DNA from: Bacteroidota bacterium | GTDB lineage: Bacteria; Bacteroidota; Bacteroidia; Palsa-965 | Direction of reading: 5' to 3' | Assembly: GCA_003153435.1 (NCBI GenBank) | Contig: PLYR01000128.1 | Span: 1-32,591 of the forward strand | Length of the DNA stretch: 32,591 nucleotides | Shown here: piece after piece, positions 9,378-31,563 of the stretch | How positions within the stretch are numbered: position 1 is the first letter of the stretch | Layout of the letters: each line of letters starts with the position of its first letter | Notes under the pieces: model-generated | Databases searched by the model: none | Seen by the model: only the letters and a program-made list of their open reading frames with translations | What the model was told of the DNA's origin: nothing | Program-made: the position numbers and the translations under genes

Positions 9378-10133
9378 ATGATCGTCTTCATCACAGGTGC
9401 AACTGCCGGTTTTGGAAAAGCCACCGCTGAACTATTTGCCTCCAAGGGTTATGATGTAATCATCACCGGGCGAAGAAAGGAAAAGCTATCTCTTGTAGAA
9501 GAGGATCTAAAAAAACGATTCAAAATAAAGGTTCTAAGCCTTTGCTTTGATGTCCGCCATGTCGAGGAAGTAGAAAAAGCGGTATCCTCACTCCCCGATT
9601 GCTGGAAGCAAATTGACATCCTCGTAAACAATGCCGGGCTGGCTGTGGGATATAACCCAATCCAGGAAGGGCTTATCGACGATTGGGACCGGATGATCGA
9701 TACCAATGTTAAAGGCCTGCTGTATATGACACGACAGATCGCCCCGCTTATGATTGCTAAAGGCAAAGGGCACATTATCAACCTGGGCTCAATTGCAGGC
9801 AAGGAAGTATATGCCAATGGTAATGTATATTGTGCAAGTAAATATGCGGTTGATGCACTCAATAAGAGTATGCGGATAGATCTCCTCCCTCATGGAATCA
9901 GGGTTACTTCCATCAGTCCGGGACTTGCGGAAACTGAATTTTCTATTGTCCGCTTTAAAGGGGATGAGCAACGTGCTAAAAATGTTTATAAGGGCATAGA
10001 GCCACTCAAGGCTGAAGACATTGCGGAAGCTATCTTCTGGGCGGCCAGCAGGCCAGCCCATGTGAACATACTCGATATCGTCCTGACTGCAGGAGCTCAG
10101 GCAAATGCAACCACTTTTATAAGGAAAAGCTAA
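9378..10133 (+). CDS. Short-chain dehydrogenase/reductase, YdfG-like
   Basis: This 251-residue classical SDR reduces or oxidises a hydroxy/keto pair with NAD(P). The cofactor motif TGATAGFG is at residues 6-13, with basic residues GRRKEK (31-36) after the second strand favouring NADP. NNAG is at 84-87, the catalytic Ser at 138 (NLGSIAG), and YCASK gives Tyr151 and Lys155. The SISPGLAETEFS stretch and overall length fit the YdfG group, which oxidises serine, threonine and other 3-hydroxy acids. Cytosolic, with no signal peptide. It lies 9 bases after the permease and 4 bases before the amidohydrolase, pointing to joint use of an amino-acid-like substrate, though this is inference. All key residues are present. 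Confidence 0.93.
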   Translation: MIVFITGATAGFGKATAELFASKGYDVIITGRRKEKLSLVEEDLKKRFKIKVLSLCFDVRHVEEVEKAVSSLPDCWKQIDILVNNAGLAVGYNPIQEGLIDDWDRMIDTNVKGLLYMTRQIAPLMIAKGKGHIINLGSIAGKEVYANGNVYCASKYAVDALNKSMRIDLLPHGIRVTSISPGLAETEFSIVRFKGDEQRAKNVYKGIEPLKAEDIAEAIFWAASRPAHVNILDIVLTAGAQANATTFIRKS

Positions 10134-10137
10134 AGCC

Positions 10138-11877
10138 GTGAAATTATTTAAATGGGCGTTTCTTTTAGCTGTTCTTGTCTCTTCTTGCATGAGCAAGCCC
10201 AAGATAAAAGTGGATCTCATTGTTTACCACGCTGCAGTATATACTGTCGACTCTAAATTCTCCGTCGCAGAGTGTTTTGCGGTAAAAGATGGTAAAATTC
10301 TCGTCGTAGGAAAATCCGACTCCATCCTCGCGCATTATGAAGCCAAAGAAATGATAGACGCCGCAGGGAAAGCTGTATTCCCTGGTTTTATTGATGCGCA
10401 CTGTCATTTTTATGAATATGGGCGATCCCTTCAGGAAGTAGACCTGGTAGGCACCAAGTCTTTCGAAGAAGTTATTCAGCGAATACAATCTTTTGTAAGC
10501 TCCCATCCTGAAATCTACTCAGACAAAAACGGAAGAAGCAACTGGATCGTTGGGCATGGATGGGATCAGAATAACTGGGAAGAAAAGAAATTTCCAGACC
10601 GCAAGCAGCTTGATTTACTATTCCCCCATACACCGGTCTATCTCTCCCGCATTGATGGTCATGCAACACTTGTAAATGGAGAAGCTCTTAAACAAGCCGG
10701 CATCACCAATTGGGTCCACGTAGACGGCGGGATTATCATAACACGGGGTCTATATGAAACGGAGGATATGACTCATGTCAAAACGGAAGGATTATCGGGA
10801 GTGCTGATTGATAATGCCATGGATCTAATCGGTAAAGTACTCCTTCGCCCTTCCAAATTGGAGATCCGAAAGGCATTACTCGATGCACAGCAAAAATGCC
10901 TGGCTATGGGGCTAACCACCCTGGATGATGCCGGACTAAGCAAAGAAGTGGTAGACCTGATTGATCAAATCCAGAAATCCGGAGAACTCAAAATGAGGAT
11001 TTATGCAATGCTTACCCCTGACAAAGAGAACCTCGATTATTACCTCACCCATGGTCAGTATAAAACAGATCGTCTCAATATCCGTTCATTTAAATTCTAT
11101 GCCGACGGTGCACTTGGATCACGGGGGGCTTGCCTTCTCAAACCTTATACGGACAAACCTTCGGAGTTTGGCTTTCTCCTGAACAAACCAGAATACTACA
11201 GATCAATGGCTCTGGAGATGTTTCAGAAGGGCTTTCAGATGAATACGCATTGCATCGGTGACTCGGCCGTCAGAATGATCCTCAGGCTCTACAACAATAT
11301 CTTTATGAACTATGCATGCAATGGCGGCCATCTTCATATGAATCCCCGTTGGAGGATTGAACACTTCCAGGTAACAACCCCGGAGGATATTGCCTTGCTT
11401 AGTAATAGTTGCAGCAAACAAATGTCCCCTATACCCTCTGTCCAACCCACCCATGCTACGTCAGACATGAAGTGGGCCATAGACCGCTTAGGCCCGGAAC
11501 GCATTAAATATGCATATGCTTACAAAGAGCTTAAGGAAGCTGCCGGGATGGTAGCCCTTGGGACCGATTTTCCGGTTGAGGATATTAGTCCGTTTAAAAC
11601 CTTTTACGCAGCGGTATCCCGAAAAGACATACACGGAAATCCGGAAAAAGGCTTTCAACCGGAAAATGCCTTGACCCGGGAGGATGCCTTGAGAGGAATG
11701 ACGATATGGGCGGCTTATGCGAATTTCGAAGAGAAAGAAAAAGGAAGTATAGAACCCGGAAAAATGGCTGACTTCATTCTTCTTGACCGAAACCTGATGA
11801 AGTGCAGCGAGCAGGAAATACTCAAAGCCTCTACCCTAGCAACCTATATCAACGGAGAACGGGTTTATTATAAATGA
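10138..11877 (+). CDS. Exported lipoprotein amidohydrolase, YtcJ-like (Amidohydro_3)
   Basis: This 579-residue protein starts with GTG at 10138, the only start that keeps the signal: FKWAFLLAVLVSSC is a lipoprotein signal with the modified cysteine at residue 17. The metal-dependent hydrolase core follows: FPGFIDAHCHFYEYG (His88, His90), GHGWDQNNWE, SRIDGHATLVN, FKFYADGALGSRGA, MNTHCIGDSAVRM, RIEHFQV and ALGTDFPVEDISPF. These are the marks of the YtcJ/NfdA branch of the amidohydrolase superfamily, which cleaves N-acyl or formamide bonds. The natural substrate is unknown. Most relatives are cytosolic, while this one is probably anchored in the envelope, where it could free amines or amino acids for the permease two genes upstream. 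The C-terminus (EPGKMADFILLDRN) is the usual end. Confidence 0.92.
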   Translation: MKLFKWAFLLAVLVSSCMSKPKIKVDLIVYHAAVYTVDSKFSVAECFAVKDGKILVVGKSDSILAHYEAKEMIDAAGKAVFPGFIDAHCHFYEYGRSLQEVDLVGTKSFEEVIQRIQSFVSSHPEIYSDKNGRSNWIVGHGWDQNNWEEKKFPDRKQLDLLFPHTPVYLSRIDGHATLVNGEALKQAGITNWVHVDGGIIITRGLYETEDMTHVKTEGLSGVLIDNAMDLIGKVLLRPSKLEIRKALLDAQQKCLAMGLTTLDDAGLSKEVVDLIDQIQKSGELKMRIYAMLTPDKENLDYYLTHGQYKTDRLNIRSFKFYADGALGSRGACLLKPYTDKPSEFGFLLNKPEYYRSMALEMFQKGFQMNTHCIGDSAVRMILRLYNNIFMNYACNGGHLHMNPRWRIEHFQVTTPEDIALLSNSCSKQMSPIPSVQPTHATSDMKWAIDRLGPERIKYAYAYKELKEAAGMVALGTDFPVEDISPFKTFYAAVSRKDIHGNPEKGFQPENALTREDALRGMTIWAAYANFEEKEKGSIEPGKMADFILLDRNLMKCSEQEILKASTLATYINGERVYYK

Positions 11878-15639: not shown

Positions 15640-18153
15640 TCACACCCTTACCCCTACTACTAAAACATCATCCACCTGTTCCAATGATCCTCTCCAGTCG
15701 ACCAGCGTTTGTCGGAGAATCTCCTTCTGTCGGCTCATAGTCTCTGGCTGTATCGAGAGGAGTTTTTCCTGCAATTGTCTGTATTTAAATTTTTTGCCTT
15801 TGGGTCCTCCAAACTGATCCGCAAATCCGTCTGTAAAGAGATAGAGTGTATCTCCTTTTCTTACTTCTAAGGCATGATTGGTAAATGGTCTTGCTTCTCC
15901 CCGTAGGTAGCTGATCGGATGCTTATCCGGCTTCCACTCCAGGCATTTGCCTTCTCTTATAAGCCATAACGGGTTGTTGGCTCCTGCCCATTCGACCATT
16001 ATCGTTTCTCCCTTTTTCTCAAAGCTGAGGAGGGATATATCCATTCCGTCATTGGAGGCTCCCTCAGCCTCATCTTGCTTAAGCGAACTGATAACCAGCT
16101 TCCGAAGCTCACCGAGGATAAGACTAGGCATGGTAATTCCTCGTTCATTCACAATTTCATTGAGGAATGAATTACCGATCATACTCATAAAAGCTCCTGG
16201 CACTCCATGACCTGTACAATCTACCGCAGCAATAAGTCTCTTTCCGTCTTTTTCCGTAAACCAATAGAAATCTCCGCTTACGATATCCCTGGGGTGGAAT
16301 AAAATATATGCTTCCGGAAACAGTTGTTTCATCACCCTCAACGGAGGCAAGAGAGCCTGTTGTATTCGTTTTGCATAATTAATGCTATCAGTAATATCTT
16401 TATTCTTTTCTTCCAGCTCTTCTTTTTGCTTCACGACCTGAGCAGTGCGTTCAATAACTTTCTGTTCCACATGCTCGTACATCAGGGCATTTTCAAGAGC
16501 TATATCAACGAATACGGCCAGGCTCTTCAAAATATTTACATGATAAGAGGTATAGGCATTTTTGCTAAAACTCTGTACGGTAATCACACCAACCTTCTTG
16601 TTGTTTTTCGAGACCAGAGGCAGGTAGATAAGAGAATGGGTCACATCCCCTACGATGGCTCCATAAGAGTCCAGGTGTGGAAAATAAGTTTTGAATTCGG
16701 TCTGAAGATCGTTAATGAATACGGTCTGCTGGTTCTCAAAACACCACACCGCAAGTTTATCTCTGTTTTCAAGAGGGAGGGAAAATAGTGGCATTTTCTG
16801 ACCCTTTTCGAAAGCTCCCGGAAAATCAAGACAATTCTTATCCTTCTGATAAATACCTATGATAAATACAGAGGCATCCATGAGCAGATTTATGCTCTCA
16901 TAGGCTGTCTCAATAATTTTCTCCACGGAAAGGCATGAAGTGATTTGCTGCCCGATTTCACTGAGCACTTTTACATTTTCATAGGTCTGCTCAATCTCCT
17001 CTTTTTGTTTAACTACTTCTGTTGTGCGTTCGATAACTTTCAATTCCACTGATTCATAAAGCAAGGCGTTCTCCAGAGCGATAGAAGTGAATACAGCGAG
17101 ATTGCGCACAATATTCAAATGATAATCCGTATAGGCATTTTTACTAAAGCTCTGGATCGTAATCACACCCAAAGATTTTTTTTCTTTCGAAATTAAAGGC
17201 AGCCAGATCGACGATTCAGGCATTTCGCCGGCTACAGGCCTTGGAGGCTCAAAGTCGGGCAGATAATTTTTATATTCACTTAGGTAGTCATTTATAAATA
17301 CTTCCTTTTGTGTTTTAAATGACCAGACCGGAAGTCTTGCCTCGTCAGAAAGGTTATAAAAGGCGAAAGGAAGAGATTTGCCCTTCTCAATACCAAGAGG
17401 ATAATCCAATGTTTGCTGGGACTCATTATAAATTCCTATCCAGAAGGATGAAGCATCCATCAATTCGTTGATGTTTGCGTAAGCGGTTTCAATAATTTTC
17501 TCAACTGATAGACTGGAAATAATTTGCTTTCCGATTTCACCCAACAGTTTAATATTCTGATAGGTATGTTCAATTTCTTCTTTCTGGCGGGTTATCTCTT
17601 TCAGTCTCATCCGCACTTCCTCTTCCATATTCTCATACAGTCGGGCTCGCTCCAGCGATCCGGAGATAGCAACGGCAAGTCCTCTTAGAATATCGAGGTG
17701 ATAGCCGGAATAAGAATTTTTCTTGAAGCTTTGAACACTCAATACACCAACGGCTTCTTTTCCAGCCATAAGCGGAAGATAGATGAGCGCTTCCGGGTCT
17801 TCACCTGCGGTAGGAGTTGGGATTTCGTTTCCCGGAAAATAGGTCTTGTAATCGTTCACAAAATCATTCATGATGATTTCTTCCCGATTTATATAACATC
17901 TTACAGAGAGTCTGTTTGTTTCTTCCAGTGAATTACTGTTTGCAGGCAGCTTCTCTCCTTTTTCAATATCAGCAGGATAAAAGAGTTCATTTGTTTCAGG
18001 CCTGTGGATTCCGATCACGAAAACGGTTGCATCCATCAGGACATTCACATTCTGATATACTTTTCCGATAATTTCTTCAACTGAAAGAAGTGAAGAAATC
18101 TCCTGTATAATTTCACTTAAAATTTGTGTAGTACGCTGAGTAGAATCGGACAT
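15640..18153 (-). CDS. Triple-GAF SpoIIE-type PP2C protein serine phosphatase
   Basis: This 837-residue protein has no signal or membrane segment, so it is cytosolic. Three tandem GAF-like sensor units (about residues 11-173, 205-372 and 397-563) each begin LLSEIGQQI-like, with SVEKIIETAY and LMDAS-x-F-x-IGIY, and end ALENA-x-x-YE. Coiled linkers rich in KQKEEIE separate them, and the third linker leads into the phosphatase. The PP2C domain (595-837) shows DIVSGDFYWF, VDCTGHGVPGAF, NDGMDISLLSF, FTDGFADQFGG and VDDVLVVGVRV, whose Asp residues bind the two metal ions. Such phosphatases act on phosphorylated anti-anti-sigma-like partners. No kinase or substrate lies beside it, but the domain is closely related to that of the gene at 27128, so it may act on the SiaC-type protein at 26148. 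Confidence 0.92.
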   Translation of the reverse strand: MSDSTQRTTQILSEIIQEISSLLSVEEIIGKVYQNVNVLMDATVFVIGIHRPETNELFYPADIEKGEKLPANSNSLEETNRLSVRCYINREEIIMNDFVNDYKTYFPGNEIPTPTAGEDPEALIYLPLMAGKEAVGVLSVQSFKKNSYSGYHLDILRGLAVAISGSLERARLYENMEEEVRMRLKEITRQKEEIEHTYQNIKLLGEIGKQIISSLSVEKIIETAYANINELMDASSFWIGIYNESQQTLDYPLGIEKGKSLPFAFYNLSDEARLPVWSFKTQKEVFINDYLSEYKNYLPDFEPPRPVAGEMPESSIWLPLISKEKKSLGVITIQSFSKNAYTDYHLNIVRNLAVFTSIALENALLYESVELKVIERTTEVVKQKEEIEQTYENVKVLSEIGQQITSCLSVEKIIETAYESINLLMDASVFIIGIYQKDKNCLDFPGAFEKGQKMPLFSLPLENRDKLAVWCFENQQTVFINDLQTEFKTYFPHLDSYGAIVGDVTHSLIYLPLVSKNNKKVGVITVQSFSKNAYTSYHVNILKSLAVFVDIALENALMYEHVEQKVIERTAQVVKQKEELEEKNKDITDSINYAKRIQQALLPPLRVMKQLFPEAYILFHPRDIVSGDFYWFTEKDGKRLIAAVDCTGHGVPGAFMSMIGNSFLNEIVNERGITMPSLILGELRKLVISSLKQDEAEGASNDGMDISLLSFEKKGETIMVEWAGANNPLWLIREGKCLEWKPDKHPISYLRGEARPFTNHALEVRKGDTLYLFTDGFADQFGGPKGKKFKYRQLQEKLLSIQPETMSRQKEILRQTLVDWRGSLEQVDDVLVVGVRV

Positions 18154-26147: not shown

Positions 26148-26549
26148 TTAATGTGGAATGAACTCGAAAGGTAATTCCACCATCTCTGAAAATTCAGTTC
26201 CTGCATCAAGCATATCATCGTCTCTTTTGTCGTAATGCCATTCTATTTTGACATTGTATCCCTGTTCAACCAATTTTTTTACGGAAAATATAATATCTAG
26301 GATATACTTCGCTGAAGTGGAGTTAAAGTAGTCTAATTTAAACTCAAATATTATCTGAGATTTATCCCCGCGCTCATTTTTACGCCAGTAAAGTACATCT
26401 TCAAACTTTTTTATCCATTCGATAACCGGAGTATAAAACTTACTCGCATTTTCAGGTCTTGATTCTCCGGAAATTACAAACCGGTTAGAGGTGGTAGTGA
26501 ATTTAACTTCCGGCGAATCTTCGGTTGGGGAAATGATTAGTGAGTCCAT
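26148..26549 (-). CDS. SiaC-family regulatory phosphoprotein (DUF1987)
   Basis: This 133-residue cytosolic protein fits the SiaC family (DUF1987) across its length. Visible marks are LIISPTEDSPEVKF at the N-terminus, GESRPENASKFYTPVIEWI, and the phosphorylation region FKLDYFNSTSAKYILDI with Ser77, Thr78 and Ser79; in Pseudomonas SiaC a Thr at this site is phosphorylated by SiaB and freed by SiaA. When unphosphorylated, Pseudomonas SiaC binds and switches on the diguanylate cyclase SiaD. The kinase (26565) is 15 bases upstream and the phosphatase (27128) precedes that, so all three partner-switch parts are in one operon. No SiaD-like gene is present, so the output target is unknown. Confidence 0.88.
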   Translation of the reverse strand: MDSLIISPTEDSPEVKFTTTSNRFVISGESRPENASKFYTPVIEWIKKFEDVLYWRKNERGDKSQIIFEFKLDYFNSTSAKYILDIIFSVKKLVEQGYNVKIEWHYDKRDDDMLDAGTEFSEMVELPFEFIPH

Positions 26550-26564
26550 AATTTTATGTGTTTG

Positions 26565-27101
26565 TCAGATAGATATTTCAGTTTGAAATTGGTAGAAGGA
26601 AGTTTCATTGGTCAGGGGGAAAAAATCGTACTGAATGCTGTTTCCTGTCTTTATGGCAATATCGATAATCCCAAGCCCGGCTCCGTTTTCTGTCGTCTTT
26701 CCGGATTGGATCTGATCCCGGTACATTTGTTTGAGTTCTTCCAAACTGAGATTCATGACTTTATCCAGTTTTTCCTTCAATGCCGGGATATTGGAATTTA
26801 AGATCGGGTTTCCGGAGATGACCGTATATTTTGAATCATCCCGGCAAACCATAAAAATACTTTGGCTGTTGGCGGTCTTATCCTGCGTTGCATGGCGCCC
26901 GATATTTTCGATACTTTCAACCAATACATGGTAAACCCGTTTAACAGTATTTCCGGTTATATCATCCGGATTCAGTTTGCCCTTTATATTTTTCAGCAAA
27001 ACACTGATGATCCGGTGATCAAATTCACCGGTGAAGACAAGCAACACATTCTTCTCTTCCATAAAGCGGGAGATTTCGTAAGCGTCGATAATTGCATTCA
27101 T
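26565..27101 (-). CDS. SiaB-family protein kinase (GHKL-type, DUF6272)
   Basis: This 178-residue protein corresponds to the SiaB kinase family (DUF6272). The GHKL nucleotide-binding marks are an N-box YHVLVESIENIGRHA (Glu62, Asn66, His70) and a G-box ENGAGLGIIDIAIKTGNS (Gly140, 142, 144) of the kind seen in anti-sigma kinases. The N-terminal part, VLLVFTGEFDHRIISVLL, starts with a strand-helix of the family and lacks a sensor domain. It would phosphorylate the SiaC-type protein encoded 15 bases downstream, with the PP2C enzyme from 27128 reversing it. The gene lies 26 bases after that phosphatase gene. Cytosolic, with key ATP-site residues intact. Confidence 0.85.
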   Translation of the reverse strand: MNAIIDAYEISRFMEEKNVLLVFTGEFDHRIISVLLKNIKGKLNPDDITGNTVKRVYHVLVESIENIGRHATQDKTANSQSIFMVCRDDSKYTVISGNPILNSNIPALKEKLDKVMNLSLEELKQMYRDQIQSGKTTENGAGLGIIDIAIKTGNSIQYDFFPLTNETSFYQFQTEISI

Positions 27102-27127
27102 GCTAAACTTTTTTAGAAACCGTTAAA

Positions 27128-30100
27128 TTATATTCTAATTCCAACCACAAGGATATCATCGGTCTGGACCCTGTCCCCTTTCCATTTCATTATTGTATCA
27201 TCCAGTACTTGCTTTTGTTTTTCGACATCCAGGAGATAAATATTCTGGAGCAATTCACGGAAAGGCTGTCCGAAGAATTTTTTTCCTTCTTGCCCCCCTA
27301 TCTGATCCACATACCCGTCGGATATCATATACAACATGTCGCCTTTCTTTAGGTCAACAGGATGAGAGGTGAAACCGGTATTTGTCCGGCTGAAACTTCC
27401 GATAGCGCGTTTGTCTCCTTTTATCTGTGTACATTCTCCGTCTCTGATTAAAAACAGCGGGTTATGTGCCCCTGCAAATTCCAGGCTGTTCAGATCTTTA
27501 TTCACAGAAATAAGGGCTATGTCCATTCCATATTTGGCAGAGGTATTTTCCTGATCCTGTTTTAATGTTTTTAGTACCTGAATATTTAATTCTGTCAGAA
27601 TTTCGGCTGGTCTGGCTGACCTTGTCACATTTATGGTTTCCTTCAAAAGGCTATGGCCCATGAGCGACATAAAAGCGCCAGGTACTCCATGGCCTGTACA
27701 ATCGGCCACCCCTAAGAGTATCCTGCCATGATCTTCCTGTATCCAATAAAAATCACCACTGACAATATCCTTGGGTTTATATAACACAAAGTGAGAGCTG
27801 AAATACTTACTGATATCCGAATCTGCGGGAAGGAGGGCTTGCTGAATATTCTTCGCGTATTCAATACTGTCTATAATAACACCATTCTTTTTCTCCAGTT
27901 CCGATTTTTGTGCAGTGATTACTTCCGTACGTTGCTGAACTTTTTCTTCGAGTATCTGGTTTTTCTTTTTCAGTTCTTTTTCTCTCCGCTTTACCACGAA
28001 AGTGATAGACAGAACAAGCACTGCACCAAGAGAGACATAGAACCAAGTCGTTCTCCAGAATGGGGGGCTGATAGAGAAATGAAAGGTGACCGGTTCCTTG
28101 TTCCAGACTCCATTGCTGTTACAGGATCTTACTTTGAAAACATAATCTCCTTTCTGAAGATCGGGATAGGTTACGGAATTTTCTTTTACGATGGGAGACC
28201 ATTCTTTATCCAATCCTTCCAGCATATAGCGATACTTAACGCGTTTGGGGTTGGTAAGGCTGGTTCCTGTAAATTCAAAAGTAAAATGATTTTTATTCCA
28301 TGGGAAGATATGATCTTCCGGAATACTGACCTCCTGAAAATATATTTTCGGGTTTGCAATCGTGGTCACCGGCTCTACGATATCAGTCCGTTCAAGTGCT
28401 GCATTGTATTTTACTACACCTATGATGGAACCGAACCAAAGATTTCCTTCTTTATCCTTACAGGAGGCATTGGGATTAATCTCGATACCCAGAAATCCAT
28501 CCCCTTTTTCATAATGCCGGAAGGTTTCTTCTTTTGTATTGTATTTATCAATTCCAAGTCCTGTACCCACCCATATATTGTCTTTGTTATCGCAGGTAAG
28601 AAGAAAGGGCGTTTTAGAACTAAGGCCTTCTTTGGTGGAGTAATTCCGGAAAGTCTTCCCATCGTATTTGTATATACCTTTCTCATAGCTGCCGAACCAC
28701 ATATTCCCTTTGGAATCTTCCGTCATACACAGGGTATATTCTCCCGGATAGCCATCTGATGCAGAAAATCTTTTGAACTTCTTATCCTTTTTACCAAGGC
28801 TTCCAGGTTCCAGCATACTCAAGCTGCCACCCAGTGCACCAAACCACATCCTGTCTTTAGAATCGTGGAAGATGGTATAGATCTGGTTACTTCCCAGGTT
28901 ATTGTCTACTGTGAATTTCTCAAACGTTTCATTGGTGATATCAAATTTGAGAGCTCCTCCTTTGTTGGTTCCTATCCATACATTTCCATCTTTATCGCCA
29001 CTGATGCAATAGATTTCATTTACCGGAAGTCCGTTTTCGGTTGTAAACTCCTTTATTTCCCCTGAAGCTATATCCATCCGGCTCAGTCCATGCCCAAAAT
29101 TTGTGAACCAAAGGTGGCCTGTAATATCCTCATACAATGCAGTGGTATTTAACACCTGCCCTTCCCCTCCGGTACGCCGTATGAAACGAAATGCTGTTTT
29201 AGGTGAATCATCATCTTCAGCTACTTTTTTACTTCCCTTCTTTTTGGGTTCAGCTTTTTCATTCCCTGGTGTTGATTTACTTGCATCGGTAACGAATTGA
29301 ATCAGTCCGTTCTCTGTTCCGAGCCACATATCCCCATCTTTGCTTTGAATGACAGACCAGATAAGTGTGTTTTGAAGTCCGTCATTCTCTCCGAATATTT
29401 CAAACTGCTCATCGAAATACTGATTCAGTCCAAGATAAGTACCAAACCAGATATTCCGCTCCCGGTCTTGCAGGATAGAGAGAACCCGGTCATTACTCAG
29501 TCCATGTTTTGTAGATATACTCTGAAACCAGGAGCCTTTATAATGCAGTTTCTCCAGCTCAGGAAGGAACTTCGAAACACCTCCCCAATAGGTACCCACA
29601 AACAGGACCCCATCCGATGTTTCATAAATAGATTTTACATAATTGGAAGCAAGGCCTTGCTGAATAGTGTATGAGTAAATTCTCTTGTCTCCTGCCGGAG
29701 TAGTTTGAACTCTTTGTAATCCCCTATTCTGGGTACCAATCCACATGTCCCCTTTCTTGTCGCATGCCAGAGCAGTTACTATTCCCTCTGAGCCGCTAAA
29801 AGAAGTCAGGCTGGCTCCTGAAATGGTCACGCCGTTGTTGGTACCGATCCAAACATTTCCTTGCTGATCCTGAGCAAAAGAACTCACGGCATCTCCGGCA
29901 AGTCCGTTCTTTGTATTGAGTACCTTGAACTGACCTGCCTGCAGTATCCAGGCTCCTTCCCCTTCTGTTCCAAACCAAAGCTGACCTTTCTTATCGCAAA
30001 AAATGGAATTAATCGTTTTGGATATATTCCCCTGCGCAGGTGTCACTTCCGAAAATTTCCCGGTTGCAATATCGTATTTTGTAATTCCCCCTGACCAGTG

Positions 30101-30433
30101 TCCGAACCATACATTTCCATCTTTATCAAGGCATGAGGAAGTGACCCTGATTTCTGCAATTCCATCGCTCTTCGTATAATTTTTAAAATTAAGTCCATTG
30201 TATTTTGAAATACCATTCATCGTACCCACCCATATGTTTCCATCCTTATCCTGCACCATCGAGTAGATACTCGATTGAGGTAATCCTTCTTCAATTCCAA
30301 ATTGACTGAGGTTGAAACTCTGAGCAAGTGAATGATTAGACGTGAGGCATAGAGAGATGAAGCAGAAAGCAATCCCGGTGATGTTCCGAACGAATTTGCA
30401 ACAATTTTTGTATGCGGCTAAATTCATCTTCAT
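27128..30433 (-). CDS. Reg_prop double beta-propeller / Y_Y_Y / SpoIIE-type PP2C transmembrane phosphatase
   Basis: This 1101-residue sensor phosphatase has a signal peptide (to about residue 38, SLAQ) and then about 14 Reg_prop units of the form D-x-x-GN-x-W-x-GT-x-x-G (residues 45-700), enough for two seven-bladed propellers. A Lys/Asp-rich insert lies near residue 390-405. The Y_Y_Y domain (about 711-785, KYRYMLEGLDKEWSPI, DYVFKVRSCNSNGVW) and a TM helix (about 791-815) lead to a coiled coil and a cytosolic PP2C domain: DIVSGDFYWI, ADCTGHGVPGAF, YGMDIALISV, ISDGYVDQIGG and TDDILVVGIRI hold the metal Asp residues. Ordinarily Reg_prop and Y_Y_Y end in a histidine kinase; here a PP2C does. 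It is next to SiaB/SiaC genes, so it plays the SiaA role. The ATGA overlap at 30430 couples it to the upstream gene. Confidence 0.93.
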   Translation of the reverse strand: MKMNLAAYKNCCKFVRNITGIAFCFISLCLTSNHSLAQSFNLSQFGIEEGLPQSSIYSMVQDKDGNIWVGTMNGISKYNGLNFKNYTKSDGIAEIRVTSSCLDKDGNVWFGHWSGGITKYDIATGKFSEVTPAQGNISKTINSIFCDKKGQLWFGTEGEGAWILQAGQFKVLNTKNGLAGDAVSSFAQDQQGNVWIGTNNGVTISGASLTSFSGSEGIVTALACDKKGDMWIGTQNRGLQRVQTTPAGDKRIYSYTIQQGLASNYVKSIYETSDGVLFVGTYWGGVSKFLPELEKLHYKGSWFQSISTKHGLSNDRVLSILQDRERNIWFGTYLGLNQYFDEQFEIFGENDGLQNTLIWSVIQSKDGDMWLGTENGLIQFVTDASKSTPGNEKAEPKKKGSKKVAEDDDSPKTAFRFIRRTGGEGQVLNTTALYEDITGHLWFTNFGHGLSRMDIASGEIKEFTTENGLPVNEIYCISGDKDGNVWIGTNKGGALKFDITNETFEKFTVDNNLGSNQIYTIFHDSKDRMWFGALGGSLSMLEPGSLGKKDKKFKRFSASDGYPGEYTLCMTEDSKGNMWFGSYEKGIYKYDGKTFRNYSTKEGLSSKTPFLLTCDNKDNIWVGTGLGIDKYNTKEETFRHYEKGDGFLGIEINPNASCKDKEGNLWFGSIIGVVKYNAALERTDIVEPVTTIANPKIYFQEVSIPEDHIFPWNKNHFTFEFTGTSLTNPKRVKYRYMLEGLDKEWSPIVKENSVTYPDLQKGDYVFKVRSCNSNGVWNKEPVTFHFSISPPFWRTTWFYVSLGAVLVLSITFVVKRREKELKKKNQILEEKVQQRTEVITAQKSELEKKNGVIIDSIEYAKNIQQALLPADSDISKYFSSHFVLYKPKDIVSGDFYWIQEDHGRILLGVADCTGHGVPGAFMSLMGHSLLKETINVTRSARPAEILTELNIQVLKTLKQDQENTSAKYGMDIALISVNKDLNSLEFAGAHNPLFLIRDGECTQIKGDKRAIGSFSRTNTGFTSHPVDLKKGDMLYMISDGYVDQIGGQEGKKFFGQPFRELLQNIYLLDVEKQKQVLDDTIMKWKGDRVQTDDILVVGIRI

Positions 30434-31563
30434 TCCTTTTTATTTTTTTTATCGTGAGCGGCGATTACATCCAGGAGGCTGGTCAATGCATTGCTGGTTT
30501 CATACTTTCCAGAAAGATTTGCCGCTTGTATTTTATCCTCTTTAACACGAGAGGTTAAGAACCGCCCTTCCTGAGCCCGGAGGGAGTATGCTTCAGGGCT
30601 GATCGGGATGACTGGCATCTCATTCATGATCTGTTGCTTTGGGTTGACTTCAACCTTCGCAGTTGGTTGTGAAGTTTCCACCTTTTTATCAGCAGGTGCT
30701 TCTGTTTTGTTATCTGGTACCGGTGTTTCTTTTATTTCTGATCCGGCCTTTTCAGCAGCAAGGGCTGCATCCTGTTTGCTTTTCAGTTCAGCGGCTGCTT
30801 TCCTGTCGGTGTCTTCCTGAGCGAGTCTTGCTTTCTCGGCTTCTTCTTTTGCTTTTTCCTCAGCAAGGCGGGCTGCTTCCTGCTGTGTCGCCTTTATTTT
30901 ATCTTCCTCCTCTTTCTTTTTCTTTTCATCCTCCAGTCGTTTCTTTTCTGCTTCAATCTTTTTCTGTTTTTGTTCCTCTTCTTTCTGCTTCTTTAATTGA
31001 TCTTTACGATACTGTGGATCAGACTTCAATTTCTCCTGTTCGTTTTGAACCACCTTTGCATAGCTCTGGTCTATACCGAAACCTTTTTGCTTTGCATTCC
31101 ATTTTATTCTGCCAAAAGCCTGTTTCAACACAATATCATTGGGCATCAGTGGAGTCAAGGAGATCTCAAGATCGTAATCATAGCTGGGAAAAGGATCTTT
31201 CGCATATTGCTTGGGGGGAACAGCCGTATTGATGGATAGAATTTTACCGAGCAAACCAGTCTTCGAGATGTAAACCAGATACTCTCCGGAGGTATCAGCC
31301 ACCACCTGTTTAATATTTAAAACATATTTCCCGTCGTTCGTTGTAAGGAGCCTTGTGATTTCTTGATCCTTCTTCTTAAGTACGATGGATACACCTGCAA
31401 CCGTTTTATTGTTGACTTTAATATCTCCCTGAAGCACAAAAACAAAAGAGGTCGTGTCTCCGGTCTGAGCAAGAAGTCGGGAGCCGGAAATTAAAAAGCC
31501 GCAAAGGATAAGAAAGGGTACAATCCTTAAAATTATACTTTCAGGCTTGGTCGATCGGGACAT
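30430..31563 (-). CDS. Secreted coiled-coil protein with carboxypeptidase-like N-domain, first gene of the Sia operon
   Basis: This 377-residue protein has a signal peptide (IVPFLILCGFLISGSRLLAQ, about residues 14-33). Residues about 40-140 form a beta-sandwich (FVFVLQGDIKVNNKTVAGVSIVLKKKDQEI, TTNDGKYVLNI, GEYLVYISKTGLLGKIL) like CarboxypepD_reg/transthyretin-type domains. A long charged stretch (about 165-275) of repeating KKQKEEEQKQ, EKKRLEDEKKKKEEED and AARLAEEKAKEEAEKA predicts an extended coiled coil. A Pro/Thr/Lys linker and a short end follow. The gene starts the operon (own -7 box at 31584) and overlaps the propeller-phosphatase by four bases, so it may span the periplasm and touch the propeller as a signal donor; this is inference. 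No enzymatic motif was seen. Confidence 0.8.
   Translation of the reverse strand: MSRSTKPESIILRIVPFLILCGFLISGSRLLAQTGDTTSFVFVLQGDIKVNNKTVAGVSIVLKKKDQEITRLLTTNDGKYVLNIKQVVADTSGEYLVYISKTGLLGKILSINTAVPPKQYAKDPFPSYDYDLEISLTPLMPNDIVLKQAFGRIKWNAKQKGFGIDQSYAKVVQNEQEKLKSDPQYRKDQLKKQKEEEQKQKKIEAEKKRLEDEKKKKEEEDKIKATQQEAARLAEEKAKEEAEKARLAQEDTDRKAAAELKSKQDAALAAEKAGSEIKETPVPDNKTEAPADKKVETSQPTAKVEVNPKQQIMNEMPVIPISPEAYSLRAQEGRFLTSRVKEDKIQAANLSGKYETSNALTSLLDVIAAHDKKNKKE

Follow-up and report, generated by a model that had tools for sequence, protein, structure and literature searches.

In the HptB-HsbR-HsbA system of Pseudomonas and the RsbU-RsbW-RsbV system of Bacillus, a PP2C phosphatase and a kinase set the phosphorylation state of a small STAS-like protein. 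SiaABC systems are alike in this respect but differ in that SiaB and SiaC form separate families and in that sensor and output are different. As far as we could find, the SiaABC family is known experimentally from one c-di-GMP system, SiaABCD of P. aeruginosa, in which SiaA receives its input through a two-TM, HAMP-linked region and the output is the cyclase SiaD; our literature search found no paper on SiaABC in Bacteroidota. A different kind of input is found in the Bacteroides hybrid two-component receptors BT4663, BT3049 and BT4673, in which a periplasmic double propeller with a Y_Y_Y domain is combined with histidine kinase, receiver and DNA-binding domains. Here, we analysed a contig of 32,591 nucleotides from a Bacteroidota bacterium (PLYR01000128.1, assembly GCA_003153435.1), referred to as the window. 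Judged from its sequence, the window probably encodes a SiaABC-type partner switch with a propeller sensor, a SiaA-like PP2C and a SiaB/SiaC pair, in a class in which the likeliest output of such switches would be membrane proteins.

Results

A propeller phosphatase encoded with SiaB- and SiaC-type proteins

Four open reading frames on the minus strand (26148-31563) make up the locus; a further phosphatase gene lies elsewhere in the window.

30430-31563, minus strand: Acc, a secreted protein (8-genome orthologue alignment, AlphaFold, Foldseek)
27128-30433, minus strand: membrane phosphatase, Reg_prop/Y_Y_Y/TM/PP2C (Pfam, PDB 6k4e, NF038263, AlphaFold model)
26565-27101, minus strand: SiaB-type kinase (PF19788, NF038262, PDB 6kko_A, residue check)
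26148-26549, minus strand: SiaC-type phosphoprotein (PF09345, PDB 6kko_C)
15640-18153, minus strand: 3xGAF-SpoIIE phosphatase, candidate second input (homologue adjoins the unit in genome G003)

The acc gene overlaps the phosphatase gene by 4 bases (ATGA), 26 bases lie between the phosphatase gene and siaB, and 15 lie between siaB and siaC. This confirms the coordinates, strand and compact layout given in a preliminary description of this DNA, and its domain calls (Reg_prop x14/Y_Y_Y/TM/PP2C, SiaB type, SiaC type) are backed by Pfam, NCBIfam, the blade motifs and the hydrophobic segment.

Pfam assigns Reg_prop, Y_Y_Y and SpoIIE to the phosphatase, with SpoIIE as the sole output domain of the chain and histidine kinase, receiver and DNA-binding domains absent. 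The protein contains 14 Reg_prop blade motifs, Y_Y_Y (727-788), a single hydrophobic segment (795-815), a coiled-coil linker and the PP2C domain (about 827-1100). This PP2C part is specifically of the SiaA kind: the C-terminal 290 residues, linker included, match the P. aeruginosa SiaA-PP2C structure (PDB 6k4e, E=4.5e-46) as their sole PDB match at 1e-10, and the phosphatase matches the NCBIfam SiaA model NF038263 with E=1e-67, yet under its equivalog cut-off. The AlphaFold model (mean pLDDT 77) superimposes on SiaA-PP2C at 2.3 A (TM 0.90), and its periplasmic part aligns with the double propeller of the heparin-sensing receptor BT4663. D894, D911, D1039 and D1093, invariant in 13 aligned sequences, are the putative metal ligands. 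That a glycan is the ligand of the sensor is a guess; neither a SusC/D pair nor a glycosidase appeared in a Pfam scan of selected window genes.

The SiaB-type kinase matches PF19788 (DUF6272; E=2e-34), the SiaB family kinase model NF038262 (142 bits, cut-off 85) and PDB 6kko_A, and its Glu62 and Asn66 correspond in the alignment to the catalytic Glu and the N-box of Pseudomonas SiaB. The SiaC-type protein matches PF09345 (E=6e-34) and PDB 6kko_C (E=4e-13), and its Ser77 occupies the place that Thr68 has in Pseudomonas SiaC (NSTS versus NTSS motif). Of 140 aligned SiaC rows, 134 have a Thr or a Ser at this acceptor site; the six others have neither residue there. We also note a tandem double SiaC protein (L255:5771-6547).

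The locus shares with SiaABCD a SiaA-like PP2C with the same linker, a SiaB-type kinase with the catalytic Glu, the SiaC acceptor site and the clustering of the genes, but differs in the double propeller and Y_Y_Y input, the acceptor Ser, the extra secreted protein and the lack of SiaD. With the hybrid two-component receptors it shares the whole periplasmic part, whereas its output is a Ser/Thr phosphatase.

Acc was described previously as a coiled-coil secreted protein, which is correct but incomplete: besides a signal peptide and a long helix, AlphaFold and Foldseek indicate a transthyretin/CarboxypepD_reg-like domain (about 40-165), and the orthologue alignment (8 genomes) reveals a conserved C-terminal motif, NLSxKYExxNxxTSLLD. 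With this domain, the long helix and the conserved motif, Acc fits a periplasmic partner and probably is one; a role as signal carrier is a guess. Acc is a narrow family. Although 185 of 395 genomes gave matches, high-score, near-full-model matches were few and the remainder look like generic domains or helices, and we therefore rejected the idea of a widespread family. In lying next to the PP2C gene, acc resembles a lipoprotein gene that, in the other clade, is located between propeller-PP2C and siaB.

The four genes are conserved as a unit

Our PP2C scan of the named genomes, which are mostly MAGs, recovered 14 loci, every one in a Bacteroidota MAG. In six of these (L112, L113, L114, L115, L116 and L122; L115 is from the same-genus genome G003, also L092), the genes are arranged tightly on one strand as siaB-siaC-acc-PP2C. 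The four-gene linkage is thus real, since the same genes sit together in six other MAGs, and the window order is a rearranged version of this conserved set. When SiaB and SiaC sequences are concatenated, the resulting tree places the window and these six loci in one clade (support 1.00). A seventh genome, G040, falls outside this clade; there, acc/PP2C is divergent from siaB-siaC, and the contig ends within the PP2C gene. The proposal of a SiaA/SiaB/SiaC set in which a hybrid-two-component-type periplasmic sensor is placed on the phosphatase is supported.

Because acc and PP2C also occur together without siaBC nearby (L118, L119 and L156), the acc-PP2C pair appears to be the wider unit. Two further loci (L117 and L123) have PP2C without siaBC. 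The preliminary description had named separation of the propeller-PP2C gene from siaB/siaC as evidence against its reading; separation is seen at these five loci and is not the rule. At L109 (5322-9944), Reg_prop, Y_Y_Y, SpoIIE and two SiaB domains are joined in one chain of 1540 residues, followed by siaC.

The 3xGAF-SpoIIE phosphatase, which the preliminary description overlooked, has 70% identity over 837 aa to a homologue in G003 that is divergently adjacent to siaB of the unit, making the window protein, from G003 only, a candidate member of the module. A second PP2C gene also lies just downstream of the unit in L112, L114 and L116. Given such neighbours in G003 and these three loci, the pairing of each SiaC with two phosphatases may be a frequent arrangement.

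SiaC in a class without detectable GGDEF proteins

The window genome (98% complete) gave no GGDEF match, and GGDEF was absent from all 59 genomes of the class sampled (the window genome and 58 relatives), under a search that gave matches in 8 of 14 control genomes. SiaB and SiaC have an identical distribution, both being present in 43 of these 59 genomes. The sampled members lack detectable GGDEF proteins and SiaC must therefore have other outputs, which extends to genome and class level the earlier proposal that, with no cyclase nearby, the target of SiaC is something else; likewise, no SiaD that could serve as output of the window switch was found in the genome or the 58 relatives.

We annotated 138 SiaC genes in context, having examined nearly all of the roughly 157 matches listed. 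Within 5 kb, SiaB is a neighbour of 89 of them, PP2C of 54, propeller PP2C of 23 and a TerB-ABC-ABC2 exporter, a protein about 1030 residues long, of 20. PP2C per SiaC is 0.39, against about 0.13 expected from the density in the window genome, and propeller PP2C per SiaC is 0.17 against about 0.03, an expectation that assumes eight propeller PP2C in the window genome, where seven were seen. Orphan SiaC genes are frequent, with 40 of the 138 having no SiaB, PP2C or exporter nearby.

Nineteen of the 48 exporter genes have siaC no more than 1.2 kb away, where 0.4 would be expected. Of the 43 genomes that contain SiaC, 37 have the exporter, as compared with 1 of the 16 that lack SiaC (p=2e-8, kinship ignored). 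Complete PP2C-SiaB-SiaC-exporter runs are found at L164, L165 and L166, and runs of propeller-PP2C, lipoprotein, SiaB, SiaC and exporter at L172, L175 and L177. At L167, a gene between siaC and the exporter gene (9525-10649) encodes a relative of the exporter N-terminal region joined to a SiaC domain (a TerB-SiaC fusion). In the window genome, the exporter (C66) has no siaC linked to it, and the type of SiaC that usually partners it is represented by a paralogue on C89, not by the window SiaC; an exporter directly neighbouring a window-type SiaC was not found at any locus examined. Among the ten genomes that have the window-type PP2C, nine contain the exporter; the exception is G003, which is incomplete. 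A literature search on TerB-ABC proteins yielded nothing relevant.

A second type of neighbour strengthens the analogy with SiaD. It is a coiled-coil protein whose hydrophobic segments probably lie in the membrane, and its gene adjoins siaC at five loci in five genomes (L256, L170, L189, L215 and L258), the two genes overlapping by at most 16 bases or standing at most 125 bases apart. These proteins carry the motif [VM][SG]DRLQ, while the SiaC-binding stalk of SiaD contains I81, S82, D83, R84, Y85 and Q86, that is, ISDRYQ (PMC8457831). A pattern spanning both motifs matched those five proteins only among 1896 ORFs (1.0 expected); it was built after seeing the five and is a description, not a test. 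This coiled-coil membrane protein is likely a SiaC target without a cyclase. Comparison with the PDB gave chance matches only, and no such protein was found in the window genome.

Discussion

Altogether, we infer a model in which the reactions, and the direction in which they turn the switch, follow SiaABC. The double propeller and Y_Y_Y would sense a periplasmic signal, probably with Acc as a partner; the signal would pass through one transmembrane helix and the coiled-coil linker and set the activity of the cytoplasmic SiaA-like PP2C. The SiaB-type kinase would phosphorylate SiaC on Ser77 and the PP2C would remove this phosphate, whereupon unphosphorylated SiaC would bind its target. Because the sensor on the outside is different and there is no c-di-GMP enzyme to control, the family probably acts on other targets, for example an export pump. 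In this class, the targets of SiaC are most likely membrane proteins rather than a cyclase, with the TerB-ABC-ABC2 exporter as the best candidate; that the exporter is the target of the window's own SiaC paralogue is a guess. We also entertain, as a possibility that falls short of being probable, that SiaC in Bacteroidota controls membrane transport by binding, when unphosphorylated, to the TerB region of the exporter or to a coiled coil similar to the SiaD stalk on a membrane protein, and that this includes the window switch. If so, propeller sensors would open or close an export pump via protein phosphorylation, without a second messenger or a transcription step.

Three other readings have to be considered. 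The PP2C might act on one or several of the five other SiaC paralogues, the window SiaB and SiaC being a separate pair that merely adjoins it. Cross-talk is possible in a genome with six SiaC, five SiaB domains and 42 SpoIIE proteins, and the rearranged gene order among relatives and the existence of acc-PP2C without siaBC are in keeping with such independence; but the four genes are together in seven other genomes despite rearrangement, SiaBC of the unit forms one clade with G040 apart, and a PP2C-SiaB fusion exists, making this reading unlikely. Alternatively, the output could be transcription if SiaC, like the STAS proteins of RsbW/RsbV switches, held or released an anti-sigma-type or transcriptional regulator. 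The structure of SiaC is related to that of anti-sigma factor antagonists (PMC7647112), but among recurrent SiaC neighbours we found one sigma-factor-like ORF family, named from its sequence, at six loci and a median distance of 3.8 kb, whereas the linkage of the exporter to siaC is dense by contrast, and we regard a transcriptional output as quite improbable.

Lastly, SiaC could act, as it does in Pseudomonas, on a c-di-GMP enzyme whose gene lies elsewhere. This is the sole SiaC output characterised to our knowledge (PMC8457831), but the reading is nearly refuted and has a very slight probability given that the almost complete genome and its 58 relatives gave no GGDEF match while more than half of the controls did. 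Returning to membrane proteins as targets, SiaC is common in a class without detectable GGDEF, and concrete candidate outputs can be read from its neighbourhoods, its fusions and the shared binding motif, for a family otherwise described from c-di-GMP signalling. Moreover, the sensor of Bacteroides glycan receptors would also feed Ser/Thr phosphatases, providing a second route from this sensor into the cell.

Finally, we note two recurrent associations. At L160 (9572-10986) and its relatives in many genomes, the exporter gene is accompanied by genes for two proteins of no recognised family, one secreted and about 145 residues long, the other a lipoprotein of some 300 residues. CheR- and CheB-like genes, judged as such by sequence, recur beside PP2C-SiaB-SiaC runs (L164, L166, L167, L174 and L220), hinting at a link with receptor methylation.
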